From NCBI GenBank assembly GCA_025363435.1, contig JANYDY010000007.1, positions 1 through 47,188 of the forward strand: a DNA stretch of 47,188 nucleotides, read 5' to 3'. How positions within the stretch are numbered: position 1 is the stretch's first letter; each line of letters starts with the position of its first letter. This DNA comes from Betaproteobacteria bacterium (GTDB lineage Bacteria; Pseudomonadota; Gammaproteobacteria; Burkholderiales; SG8-41). Positions 1 through 3,512 of this stretch are shown here, one piece after another. The position numbers were made by a program, and so were the translations under genes. The notes under the pieces were generated by a model. It ran no database searches, had not been told where the DNA came from, and was given only the letters and a program-made list of their open reading frames with translations.

Positions 1-765
1 GGCGACCGCGTGATGGTCTGCCTGTCGGGCGGCAAGGACAGCTATGCCATGCTCGACGTGCTGATGCGCCTGCGCGAGAAAGCGCCGGTCGAATTCGAAT
101 TGTTCGCGGTCAATCTCGATCAGCGCCATCCCGGTTACCCCGAGCACATATTGCCGGCTTATCTCGAAGGCCTCGGTGTGCCGTACCGGATTGAAGTGCA
201 GGACACCTACTCGACGGTGAAGCGCGTCATTCCCGAGGGCAAGACCATGTGCGGCCTGTGCTCGCGGCTGCGCCGCGGCGTGTTGTATCGCGTGGCGGGC
301 GAAATCGGTGCCACCAAAATCGCACTCGGGCATCATCGCGACGACATCCTCGAAACGTTTTTTCTGAACCTGTTTTTCGGTGGCAAATTAAAAGCCATGC
401 CGCCGAAACTGGTGTCCGACGACGGCAGGCATGTGGTGATCCGGCCGCTCGCCTACGTCCAGGAAGAAGACCTCATCGCCTATGCGGAGCTCAAACAGTT
501 TCCGATCATCCCCTGCGATCTCTGCGGTTCGCAGCCGACGCTGCAAAGAAAGCAGATCAAGGGGATGCTGCGCGAGTGGGAAAAGAAATTTACCGGGCGC
601 GTCGACAGCACCTTCAATGCGCTGGCCGACGTGCGGCCGTCGCACCTGATGGACCGCCGGTTGTTCGATTTTGCCGGGCTGGCGGCCACCGGTCAGATTC
701 CGGCAGACGGCGACAAAGCCTTTGATCGGGAAGACGAATTCAGTCTTTTCTCGGACCCTAAGTAG
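1..765 (+). CDS. ttcA: tRNA 2-thiocytidine biosynthesis protein TtcA (5' end missing)
   Basis: TtcA thiolates cytidine 32 of certain tRNAs in the cytoplasm, using ATP and an iron-sulfur cluster. The frame is open from the first base, so the true start lies before the window. Visible motifs are the PP-loop ATP-binding motif SGGKDS near the beginning, the CxxC pair CGLC about 75 residues later, and a second CxxC (CDLC) about 90 residues further on; these cysteines hold the cluster in this family. The stretch [14 protein letters not shown] is typical of TtcA. The stop is TAG at 763-765. The identification is secure; only the N-terminus is absent. Confidence 0.95.
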
Positions 766-807
766 GCGCTAACTCTCGCGTTAGCTGCGATTTCGGCAAC
801 CATAGTT

Positions 808-826
808 TGTCAAAATAGTTTTGACA
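808..826. promoter_or_regulatory. Perfect inverted repeat upstream of the HTH-aminotransferase gene
   Basis: TGTCAAAA and TTTTGACA are perfect 8-base arms around a 3-base TAG spacer. The repeat ends 16 bases before the ATG at 843. A TTGTCA (807-812) and CAAAAT (830-835) 17 bases apart could be -35 and -10 boxes, which would place the transcript start almost on the ATG at 843. I infer an operator, perhaps bound by the helix-turn-helix encoded just downstream (autoregulation). Not tested. Confidence 0.55.
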
Positions 827-842
827 TGGCAAAATCTCTGCC

Positions 843-2354
843 ATGAACTGTGCTGATCGTCTGGTTGCCATTTTTGGTTCGCAAGCCGAAGTCGCGCGCC
901 AATTCCGTCTCGACCGCGCAGTCGTCAACAACTGGGTCAAATCGGGTTACGTGCCGGCGCGCTGGGCGATGGAAGTCGAACAGGCCACCGGCGGGCAGAT
1001 TGCCGCAGTAGAAGTGCTCAACGAAGCCACCACTCGCAAGCCCTTGCGCATGAAGTCGCGCCCGGACGGTGGCAGCTTATTCGAATCACTAACAGGAATC
1101 GACACCATGAATGAATTCGCACCCGCCAAACGCATCAGCTCTTTCCACCCGCCGCAACGCACGCTGCTCGGCCCCGGCCCGTCGGAGATCACGCCGCGCG
1201 TGATGGCGGCGATGAGCCTGCCGGCGATCGGCTACCTTGATCCGATTTTTGTCGGCATGATGGAAGAGCTCAAGGGGCTGTTGCGTTACACCTTCCAGAC
1301 CAAGAACCCGCTGACGTTTCCGATTTCCGGGCCCGGTTCGGTCGGCATGGAATTCTGCTTCGTCAACATGGTTGCCCCTGGCGACAAAGTGATTGTCTGC
1401 CGCAACGGCGTATTCGGCGGCCGCATGATCGAAAACGTCGAGCGTGCCGGCGGCGTGCCGATCGTGGTTGAAGATGCCTGGGGCGAGCCGATCGACCCGC
1501 AAAAACTCGAAGACGCGCTGAAGAAAAATCCCGATGTGCGCCTGGTTTCGTTTGTTCACGCCGAAACCTCAACCGGCGTGCAGTCGGATGCAAAAACGCT
1601 GATTGACATCGCGCACCGTCACGACGCGCTCACCATCATGGACGCGGTGACATCATTGGCCGGCACGCCGGTACTGGTGGATGAGTGGCATGCCGACGCC
1701 GTGTATTCGGCGAGCCAGAAGTGCCTGTCGTGCACTCCGGGTTTGTCGCCGGTGACGATTTCCGAGCGCGTGGTCGAATCCGTGAAATTGCGCAAAGACA
1801 AGATTCACAGCTGGTTCATGGACATGAACCTGCTGCTCGGTTACTGGGGCGAAACCACACGTACCTACCATCACACCGCACCGACCAACAGCCTTTATGC
1901 GCTGCACGAAGCGCTGGTGATACTGAAAGAAGAGGGTATCGAGAATTCGTGGGCACGCCACATGCGCAACCATCTCGCACTTAAGGCCGGTCTCGAAGCG
2001 ATGGGACTCAAGTTCCTGGTCAAGGAAGGCGCGGGATTGCCGCAGATGAACGCGGTACTTATTCCGGAGACGGTACAGGCACGCGAAGCCGAAGTGCGCA
2101 AAACGCTGCTCAACGAATTCAATCTCGAAATCGGCGCCGGTCTCGGCCCGCTCGCCGGCAAAATCTGGCGTATCGGCCTGATGGGTTATTCGTGCAAACC
2201 GGAAAACGTCATGCTTTGCCTGTCTGCACTCGGCTCGGTGCTCTCCGACATGGGGCTGCCGGTGCATGTCGGCGAAGCCGAAGGTGCCGCGCATAACGCG
2301 TATGCGGCGCTGCACGCCAAGGCAGCGCAGGCGAAGAAGAAAAAAGCCGCCTGA
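843..2354 (+). CDS. Cro/YdaS-like helix-turn-helix segment in frame with a serine/alanine-glyoxylate aminotransferase
   Basis: Residues 1-60 resemble YdaS/Cro-type DNA-binding proteins (SQAEVARQF followed by AVVNNWVKSG). From about residue 89 (ATG at 1107) the protein is a class V, fold-type I PLP aminotransferase of the serine-glyoxylate/alanine-glyoxylate group: LLGPGPSEI at the start, and SASQKCLS with the predicted PLP lysine at residue 293. No stop separates the two parts. The ATG at 1107 has its own AGGA ribosome site 9 bases upstream, whereas the ATG at 843 has no Shine-Dalgarno. So either a 503-residue fusion or a 415-residue enzyme plus an upstream coupled frame is made. The C-terminus is Lys/Ala-rich. 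Aminotransferase identity is firm; the fused product is inferred. Confidence 0.85.
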   Translation: MNCADRLVAIFGSQAEVARQFRLDRAVVNNWVKSGYVPARWAMEVEQATGGQIAAVEVLNEATTRKPLRMKSRPDGGSLFESLTGIDTMNEFAPAKRISSFHPPQRTLLGPGPSEITPRVMAAMSLPAIGYLDPIFVGMMEELKGLLRYTFQTKNPLTFPISGPGSVGMEFCFVNMVAPGDKVIVCRNGVFGGRMIENVERAGGVPIVVEDAWGEPIDPQKLEDALKKNPDVRLVSFVHAETSTGVQSDAKTLIDIAHRHDALTIMDAVTSLAGTPVLVDEWHADAVYSASQKCLSCTPGLSPVTISERVVESVKLRKDKIHSWFMDMNLLLGYWGETTRTYHHTAPTNSLYALHEALVILKEEGIENSWARHMRNHLALKAGLEAMGLKFLVKEGAGLPQMNAVLIPETVQAREAEVRKTLLNEFNLEIGAGLGPLAGKIWRIGLMGYSCKPENVMLCLSALGSVLSDMGLPVHVGEAEGAAHNAYAALHAKAAQAKKKKAA

Positions 2355-2367
2355 GCGCGGTTGCTGC

Positions 2368-2399
2368 AAAAAAAACGGCCGCATGATGCGGCCGTTTTT
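2368..2399. terminator. Bidirectional intrinsic terminator
   Basis: A run of A, the stem CGGCCGC/GCGGCCG with an ATGAT loop (2376-2394), then five T. The A and T tracts allow termination on both strands, which fits its place between the convergent aminotransferase gene (stop at 2354) and the cyclase gene (stop at 2400). Confidence 0.85.
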
Positions 2400-3512
2400 C
2401 TATTGCCTGAATCCCAGCACGTTGAACGCCGCCACCGGCCGCGCGAAGCCCTTGAGATTGAATTCGCCGAGCGGTTCGGAGTCCACCTGCAACTCTGCCA
2501 TATTGAGTGTCTTCTCGTTGGTCACGATCTGTCCGCCCTTGGCTTCGGCACACAGGCGCGCCGACAGATTGGTGACGCTGCCGATCGCCGCATAGTCCCA
2601 GCGTCCCTCGAAGCCGATCGCGCCGAGCGTCGCGTAGCCGTGCGCGATGCCCACGCCAAGATTCAAATCATGCCCGCGTTTGCGCCAGCCTTCCCGCAGT
2701 GGCGCAAAGTTATCGCGCAGGTCCAGCGCCATGCGCATCGACTGGGCAATCGGCATCTCGATCTGCACCGGATCGTTGAAAAAAATCATCACGCCGTCGC
2801 CGGCAAAGTGTTCCAGCGTGCCGTTATATTTCACCACCACGGGGCCGATCAAGCCGTGGTAATCGCGCAGCACGCGCATCACTTCTTCGGGCTCCGCCGA
2901 TTCGGTGAATGCGGTGAACCCGCGCAAATCGAGAAACACCACGCTGATTTCGCGGCGGTGCGGCTTCAGCAATTCATCGCCGCCGGTGACAATCGAATCC
3001 GCAATCTGCGGCGAAAAAAAACGCTTCAGGCGCCCCAGCCGCTCAAGCTGGGTGACCTGCTCGTCGACGCGCTGCGACAGTGTCTTGTTGAAGGCATCGA
3101 GCTCCTTTGCTTGCGACTGTACCGTATCGTAGAGTTCCTTAATACGGAGCAGCGATTTCACGCGCGCGAGGAGTTCCGGCTGGTTGATCGGTTTGGTCAG
3201 GAAATCGTCGGCGCCGGCCTCGATGCCCTTGATGCGTTCCTGTCCGGGGTCGAGCGCGGTCACCATCACCACCGGCAGGATGCCGTGAGCCGGATTGGCG
3301 CGGATCGTCTGGCATACCTCGTAACCGTTCATGCCGGGCATCATCACGTCGAGCAGCACCAGATCCGGATGCTCGGATTCCACTTTCGCCAGTCCTTCGG
3401 CGCCGGATGCGGCGGTTGAAACCTGATAGCCCTTGAAGGTCAGCAGGTCGGCGAGCATCTTGACGTTGAGCGGCGTGTCGTCGACTACCAGGATTTTTGC
3501 GCCTTCGTTCAC
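2400..3512 (-). CDS. Response regulator fused to a class III adenylate/guanylate cyclase
   Basis: 370 residues. Residues 1-125 form a receiver domain with phospho-acceptor Asp55 in LLDVMMPG and the conserved Lys of TKPI near 108. A helical linker (about 126-165) leads to a class III cyclase domain (about 185-370). Metal-binding aspartates are Asp195 (FLDLRGF) and Asp239 (FAGDGV); Asn315 and Arg319 (NLSARL) are the transition-state pair. The place that holds the adenine-selecting Lys in many adenylate cyclases looks like His235, while the partner Asp306 (WDYAAIG) is kept, so ATP as substrate is likely but not certain. The gene overlaps the preceding receiver gene by 4 bases (3509-3512) and is the last gene of the long minus-strand locus. 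Confidence 0.9.
   Translation of the reverse strand: MNEGAKILVVDDTPLNVKMLADLLTFKGYQVSTAASGAEGLAKVESEHPDLVLLDVMMPGMNGYEVCQTIRANPAHGILPVVMVTALDPGQERIKGIEAGADDFLTKPINQPELLARVKSLLRIKELYDTVQSQAKELDAFNKTLSQRVDEQVTQLERLGRLKRFFSPQIADSIVTGGDELLKPHRREISVVFLDLRGFTAFTESAEPEEVMRVLRDYHGLIGPVVVKYNGTLEHFAGDGVMIFFNDPVQIEMPIAQSMRMALDLRDNFAPLREGWRKRGHDLNLGVGIAHGYATLGAIGFEGRWDYAAIGSVTNLSARLCAEAKGGQIVTNEKTLNMAELQVDSEPLGEFNLKGFARPVAAFNVLGFRQ

Follow-up and report, generated by a model that had tools for sequence, protein, structure and literature searches.

MocR regulators consist of a GntR domain joined to a class I aminotransferase (PMC5320631). The trigger enzymes PutA, BirA and NadR are metabolic enzymes that bind DNA and control their own supply; to our knowledge, none of them is made both as a long form carrying a helix-turn-helix (HTH) and as a short, enzyme-only form from a conserved internal start. 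Two in-frame products of a single gene occur in Shigella, where VirF30 and VirF21 are encoded together, one of them represses the gene, and VirF21 arises from an internal promoter (PMC5101355). The small regulator YdaS from a prophage of E. coli O157 binds and represses its own promoter (PMC8630535). The HTH domain of LeuA and CarA is already catalogued by NCBI as carph-isopro, a name that we take to refer to carbamoyl-phosphate and isopropylmalate synthases.

The gene described here lies in a window of 47,188 nucleotides from a Betaproteobacteria bacterium (contig JANYDY010000007.1, to which all coordinates refer). We suggest that it is likely to encode an autogenously regulated enzyme that carries a DNA-binding head on part of its product only, translation of both forms, DNA binding and repression all being inferred.

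Gene architecture

Positions 843-2354 form a single open frame from ATG to TGA, with 503 codons encoding a protein of 503 aa. The features discussed below are as follows.

807..812, + strand: -35 hexamer TTGTCA (promoter scan; layout conserved upstream of fused loci)
808..826, no strand: putative operator dyad TGTCAAAATAGTTTTGACA within the promoter, without binding data (motif counts, symmetric columns, genome scans)
830..835, + strand: -10 hexamer CAAAAT, preceded by TG at 827-828 (promoter scan, sequence reading)
843..1106, + strand: Cro/YdaS-type HTH (residues 1-66) and variable linker, with the start of the long form (PF15943, 68-residue model, pN/pS)
1094..1097, + strand: Shine-Dalgarno (SD) sequence AGGA for the internal start (junction SD pairing across 102 fused loci)
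1107..2354, + strand: AGXT-type class V aminotransferase, with the internal start of the short form of 415 aa (Aminotran_5, aligned residues, junction ATG)

The initial annotation had described an HTH continuous with an aminotransferase in one frame and an internal ATG and ribosome site at the junction, and had named 808-826 as a stretch to check for DNA binding. The observation is confirmed: the frame is open and both domains are matched, position 1107 carries the internal ATG, and AGGA occupies 1094-1097. Positions 808-826 form a palindrome, TGTCAAAATAGTTTTGACA, binding at this site being an inference.

Identity of the two domains

A scan of residues 1-88 alone gives a match to PF15943 (YdaS_toxin) of 41.7 bits, where the cut-off is 30. 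P22_Cro reaches 24.8 bits on the same residues, below its cut-off of 30.2, and the NCBIfam domain carph-isopro (NF046037) reaches 34.2 bits on the window HTH alone, short of a cut-off of 38 that some fused relatives of the window gene do pass. A model of the 68-residue HTH has five helices and a pLDDT of 87, and its nearest solved fold (Foldseek against the PDB) is the Cro protein of prophage Xfaso 1, with a TM score of 0.78-0.80; the YdaS structure 8c7k ranks 15 among the fold matches, and no PDB match was found at E <= 0.001 (best 2.1e-3). Xfaso 1 Cro is also matched by sequence (E 9e-4), and the relatives of the HTH in phage records are small regulators, the best of them 39.7% identical (E 3e-8). 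With a match above the family cut-off and a Cro-like helical fold, the HTH meets the criteria for membership of the Cro/YdaS family. Many of its residues are invariant among aligned relatives, and over 600 random pairs pN/pS is 0.26 for HTH residues 3-66, 0.51 for the linker and 0.20 for the enzyme. By this measure the HTH is constrained at the protein level.

The enzyme part matches Aminotran_5 at 72.4-73.1 bits (73.1 when residues 89-503 are scanned) against a cut-off of 21.5, and its closest solved relative is 1vjo (E 4.7e-99). K293, D267 and R443 match AGT structures in the alignment (1vjo, 3isl, 3kgw and 4cbr for K293 and R443) and are invariant across 40 aligned relatives. We take K293 to be the PLP lysine and R443 the substrate arginine, and an Aminotran_5 domain with these two residues meets the criteria for an AGXT-type class V enzyme. 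Its substrate cannot be named, because none of the listed NCBIfam equivalogs reaches its cut-off; the best is BhcA, at 199.4 against 650. The full-length AlphaFold model is poor over the enzyme part (mean pLDDT 65) and was excluded from considerations of geometry. The same genome encodes a second, unfused aminotransferase of this class, L002 (G000:C13:125-1147, - strand), which is 35% identical to the window enzyme over residues 107-449.

A design other than that of MocR had been proposed in the initial annotation, and this also held. No GntR model matches the window protein at E <= 1, PF15943 being found instead, and Aminotran_1_2 reaches 17.7 bits, below its cut-off of 19.7. Membership of the MocR family was therefore rejected, as there is neither a GntR-type winged HTH nor a class I aminotransferase-like domain above cut-off.

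Distribution and history of the fusion

The database search for the same fusion that the initial annotation had proposed as a check was run on genome contigs. It gave 276 stretches that encode a relative, and in all of the best 80, which were kept, the HTH is in frame without a stop (one of them, L079, is cut by the contig end and visible from residue 11 on). This search and searches of whole genomes yielded a pool of 156 non-redundant loci, window included, which was taken from best hits and is not an even sampling. The pool divides into 102 fused loci (window included) and 54 unfused loci. None of the 102 fused loci has a linker stop in the true frame, and an HTH relative (E <= 0.05) is found in the fetched stretch of none of the 54 unfused ones. 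Relatives with a stop or a frame change between the two parts had been named as the finding that would refute the fusion; with 0 of 102 it is not refuted, and an arrangement as two separate genes of an operon was rejected on the same grounds.

When 200 genomes were drawn evenly from the order, 26 contained a window-type HTH, 25 of which carry it in frames of at least 506 aa; in the remaining one the frame is truncated at the contig end. The only short HTH frame of window type in the order sample, in genome G443, ends 5 bases from the contig end, and a 27th match in the draw is a separate HTH of 74 aa. The enzyme is found at E <= 1e-80 in 87 of 200 genomes of the order, apparently the same draw. 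At the level of the phylum, 144 of 299 genomes have a match at E <= 1e-20; among the listed matches that of the window alone starts before query residue 36, the residue at which a weak match in genome G279 starts. In a plasmid collection the enzyme had matches in 541 records. The top ten are restricted to the enzyme part (residue 90 or later), and in 7 records outside these ten the match spans 80% of the query or more.

In a maximum-likelihood tree built quickly from the enzyme part, one change separates fused from unfused loci, the dividing branch having a support of only 55. The fusion is a real feature and an old one, and is likely to have arisen by a single gain within the Betaproteobacteria.

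Just upstream of the fused gene, on the same strand, lies a ttcA-like PP-loop gene (window 1-765), which is also found upstream in 50 of 81 loci. Other genes that recur nearby are SDR-like (36 of the 81 loci), metF-like (26), mgtE-like (21) and ahcY-like (17). These names are what we take the neighbors to be, since the PP-loop gene of the window alone was profile-scanned. The neighbors might possibly hint at one-carbon metabolism; they leave the fusion unexplained.

Evidence for two translation starts

An ATG is present at the junction in 102 of 102 fused loci, in 101 of them in the identical alignment column. SD pairing at this ATG averages -6.66 kcal/mol, compared with -2.51 at 1405 other in-frame ATGs of the same loci. 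When the six codons before the junction ATG were resampled, drawing on each gene's own synonymous codons, the pairing was -3.51 against the real -6.66 (Wilcoxon p = 4e-18). Among glycine codons, GGG or GGA account for 93 of 94 in the five codons before the junction versus 573 of 3431 elsewhere in the enzyme. We conclude that the junction SD is kept through synonymous codon choice; the p values are inflated by kinship, but such a codon bias is hard to obtain otherwise. The starts of unfused orthologues pair at -4.38 kcal/mol (28 of 54 assignable), more weakly than the junction SD, and the first ATG of the fused loci pairs at -1.48 kcal/mol (n = 93), more weakly than the control ATGs. Stops are found within the fifteen codons before the junction in 0, 16 and 67 of the 102 loci for frames 0, +1 and +2, respectively. 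Since they are absent from the true frame and present in the other two, the linker frame appears to be held open.

In the window the -10 ends 7 nt ahead of ATG 843, so that the transcript is inferred to start at or beside the start codon, the 5' end being unmapped. The first in-frame start lies 5-8 nt past the -10, a leaderless-like spacing, in 36 of 95 fused loci and 9-71 nt past it in the other 59; leaderless translation is therefore not general. Seven fused loci have their first start elsewhere, and 6 of these have a start 6-8 nt after the -10. One locus (L016:3001) has ATA at the position expected for the first ATG, 6 nt past the -10, which could be an assembly error or an unusual start.

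In a scan of 740..2450, the HTH stretch of the window contained nothing that resembles a promoter, and synonymous change (pS) is not reduced in the HTH (0.61) or the linker (0.63) relative to the enzyme (0.51). For these two reasons internal initiation on one mRNA is favored over a second promoter. The junction start, together with its SD, lends strong support to the suggestion of the initial annotation that long and short forms are made from one frame. Translation of both forms is inferred; for the start at 843 the inference draws on protein-level constraint and on the placement of the promoter.

Promoter and putative operator

The window promoter comprises TTGTCA, a 17 nt spacer and CAAAAT, followed by 7 nt to ATG 843. 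It is the only promoter-like site in the scan of 740..2450; because shuffles give a mean of 0.6, a single hit is no better than chance and the case for the promoter rests on conservation. The layout TTGTCA-N16-18-[TC]ANNN[TA] is found upstream of 96 of the 102 fused loci, with a spacer of 17 in 93 and of 16 in 3, and is missing in 6.

Of the fused loci, 101 extend far enough upstream to be searched, and 86 of these contain the dyad TGTCAA-N6-8-TTGNC, as opposed to 0 of 54 unfused loci, the summed shuffle expectations being 0.04 and 0.01, respectively; the exact motif is absent from 15 of the 101. When the loci are aligned on the -35, the columns outside the search pattern are strongly conserved and symmetric, and together read TTGTCAAAnTnAnTTTGnCATGnTA. 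Because the search pattern itself partly determines the first six positions of this promoter logo and its -10 letters, these are not counted as evidence. In the 526,504 bases of 80 related loci there are 89 dyad matches, counting both strands; each of them lies upstream of the fused gene at a distance of no more than 200 nt, and there are none elsewhere. Given that the loci are related and that the tree shows one change, the tie between HTH and operator in the aminotransferase amounts to roughly a single event, which makes the p values too strong.

In the genome of the window itself, which is 91.7% complete, a perfect dyad is found at 808-826 only. Allowing up to 3 mismatches gives 4 sites (one perfect and three with 3 mismatches), compared with 11 for the reversed control. 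A regulon was sought in this incomplete genome with the dyad pattern and was not found. As the perfect dyad is unique there, the most likely target of the head is its own promoter alone, although there are no binding data.

Similar layouts on other enzymes

Carph-isopro matches 66 of 200 genomes of the order at E <= 1e-4, and in 24 genomes its strongest matches lie in frames of 593-650 aa. Of these frames 22 were read (L192-L206, L208, L226-L228, L233, L234, L239), and all encode an HTH joined to 2-isopropylmalate synthase (LeuA), one having been confirmed by family scan. Many other matches to carph-isopro and PF15943 are in short frames, as expected of stand-alone phage-type regulators. Altogether 33 distinct LeuA loci were read, 22 fused and 11 unfused. 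A dyad, TTGAC-N4-6-GTC, is upstream of 18 of the 22 fused loci versus 0 of the 11 unfused ones, and the junction SD averages -5.56, compared with -1.66 at other ATGs and -2.79 after synonymous resampling (p = 1e-5). Two fused LeuA loci show no junction SD.

Among 170 genomes of the order, 4 have an HTH fused to GalU whose match begins at the first HTH residue. All 4 belong to a single family, in which the same fusion was also seen in a fifth genome (loci L221/L254, L223, L255, L256 and L257). An exact TGTTCA-N6-TGAACA dyad stands beside the start in three of the five, and the other two look alike by eye; this dyad is found in 0 of 24 readable unfused GalU loci, 2 more being unreadable. The HTH-GalU loci have an SD at the ordinary GalU start. 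Several GalU matches start between query residues 9 and 40.

Other cases are less clear. A YdaS match of 57.9 bits lies in a single 880-aa frame with the domains of PEP synthase (PpsA) at L214:383-3022 (- strand), a single case that could be a chance open frame. Two fusions to the small chain of carbamoyl-phosphate synthase (CarA) were identified, one by scan (L212:390-1760, + strand) and one by eye (L213). Neither has a junction methionine, so that a single protein is expected from them and the two-form layout is not required in every such fusion. In L207 and L217 a window-type HTH precedes another domain, some 350 aa long, which we take to resemble the RhuM family.

A similar layout with other dyads thus recurs on LeuA and GalU, the PpsA and CarA cases being less certain. 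A bolder reading, which we would neither favor nor dismiss, is that unrelated biosynthetic enzymes have acquired phage Cro-type heads in frame on several independent occasions. These would be the class V aminotransferase, LeuA, GalU and perhaps PpsA and CarA, every one of them having a dyad of its own in its own promoter and most retaining the old start. Autorepression would then depend on how many subunits of a mixed oligomer are headed and how many headless, the enzyme level being self-metering.

A model of autogenous control

The fusion, the conserved internal start with its SD, the promoter layout, and the dyad with its tie to the HTH are all shown in sequence. In the model that we propose for them, a Cro-like HTH would have been joined, probably once, in frame ahead of a free-standing AGXT-type aminotransferase, and the former ribosome site and start codon of the enzyme would have been retained at the fusion. 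A single promoter would give a single mRNA. Ribosomes that initiate at the poorly equipped or leaderless start 843 would make the long HTH-enzyme, and those that use the strong internal site at 1107 would make the free enzyme. The enzyme dimer would hold two HTHs on the dyad at 808-826 within the promoter, causing repression. Autorepression by the long form fits, by analogy, with the repression by YdaS of the E. coli O157 prophage of its own promoter (PMC8630535). It is a speculative guess that heterodimers of long and short forms, with one head, fail to repress, in which case the ratio of the forms or the occupancy of the enzyme might tune expression. The evidence for autorepression is entirely sequence-based, and neither protein, nor binding, nor transcription has been measured.

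If the model is true, such genes contain a portable, simple feedback circuit, in which the promoter is informed of the enzyme level by the enzyme itself and a separate regulator gene is unnecessary for feedback. It would also suggest a role for the NCBI carph-isopro domain, and the start-site annotation of enzymes of this type could easily be only half right.

Alternative explanations

The long fusion might be the sole product, with the ATG and SD at the junction a fossil of the former enzyme start. Many unfused orthologues start near the junction, which makes a relic a natural origin for these signals. A relic would decay, yet the SD surpasses synonymous resampling (p = 4e-18), the ATG is kept in 102 of 102 loci amid a varying linker, and junction pairing (-6.66) exceeds that of the 28 assignable unfused starts (-4.38), so we consider this reading very unlikely. 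We give equally little credence to the opposite view, that the enzyme alone is made in quantity and the HTH is a leader with merely coupled translation. The poor SD pairing of the first start speaks for it; against it, the HTH is constrained as a protein (pN/pS 0.26, many invariant residues), its frame is open in 102 of 102 loci, and it co-occurs with the dyad.

Instead of internal initiation, a second promoter within the HTH coding stretch might give rise to the short form; an internal promoter of this kind is known for VirF21 of Shigella (PMC5101355). This is unlikely, though less so than the other alternatives, given that no promoter-like site was found within the HTH stretch of the window and that pS in the HTH (0.61) and linker (0.63) is not below that of the enzyme (0.51). 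Finally, the protein could be a MocR-like regulator whose enzyme part is a sensor of PLP or a ligand, serving other genes and not working as an enzyme. The two share the broad idea of an HTH with a PLP fold type I domain. However, the enzyme is under stronger constraint than the HTH and its catalytic residues are kept, and the 4 dyad sites with up to 3 mismatches in the 91.7% complete genome, one of them perfect, compare with 11 for the reversed control; there is very little to recommend this possibility. The autogenous model, with internal initiation on one mRNA, remains the preferred reading.

Comparison with known systems

In a search of the open-licence PMC literature no title was recognized that describes this fusion or the HTH fusions to LeuA, CarA or GalU. 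MocR and GabR, like the window protein, have an N-terminal HTH and an aminotransferase-type PLP domain. The window protein differs from them in its Cro/YdaS HTH, its class V enzyme with catalytic residues, and the conserved internal start for free enzyme. The prophage repressors YdaS and Cro resemble the window HTH in sequence family, in fold and in a dyad that overlaps their own promoter, but they are stand-alone small proteins, whereas the window HTH is fused to an enzyme. PutA, BirA and NadR are similar in anatomy, combining an enzyme with DNA-binding control, both activity and binding being inferred for the window protein. In the case of VirF30 and VirF21 the repressor is the short form, whereas here repression is expected of the long form, the short form being an enzyme. 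The carph-isopro fusions (NF046037) come close, since they too have a biosynthetic enzyme that begins with a related Cro-like HTH and, in the LeuA case, an internal start and a dyad; they differ in the enzyme and in the dyad, and the window HTH falls below the cut-off of that domain.
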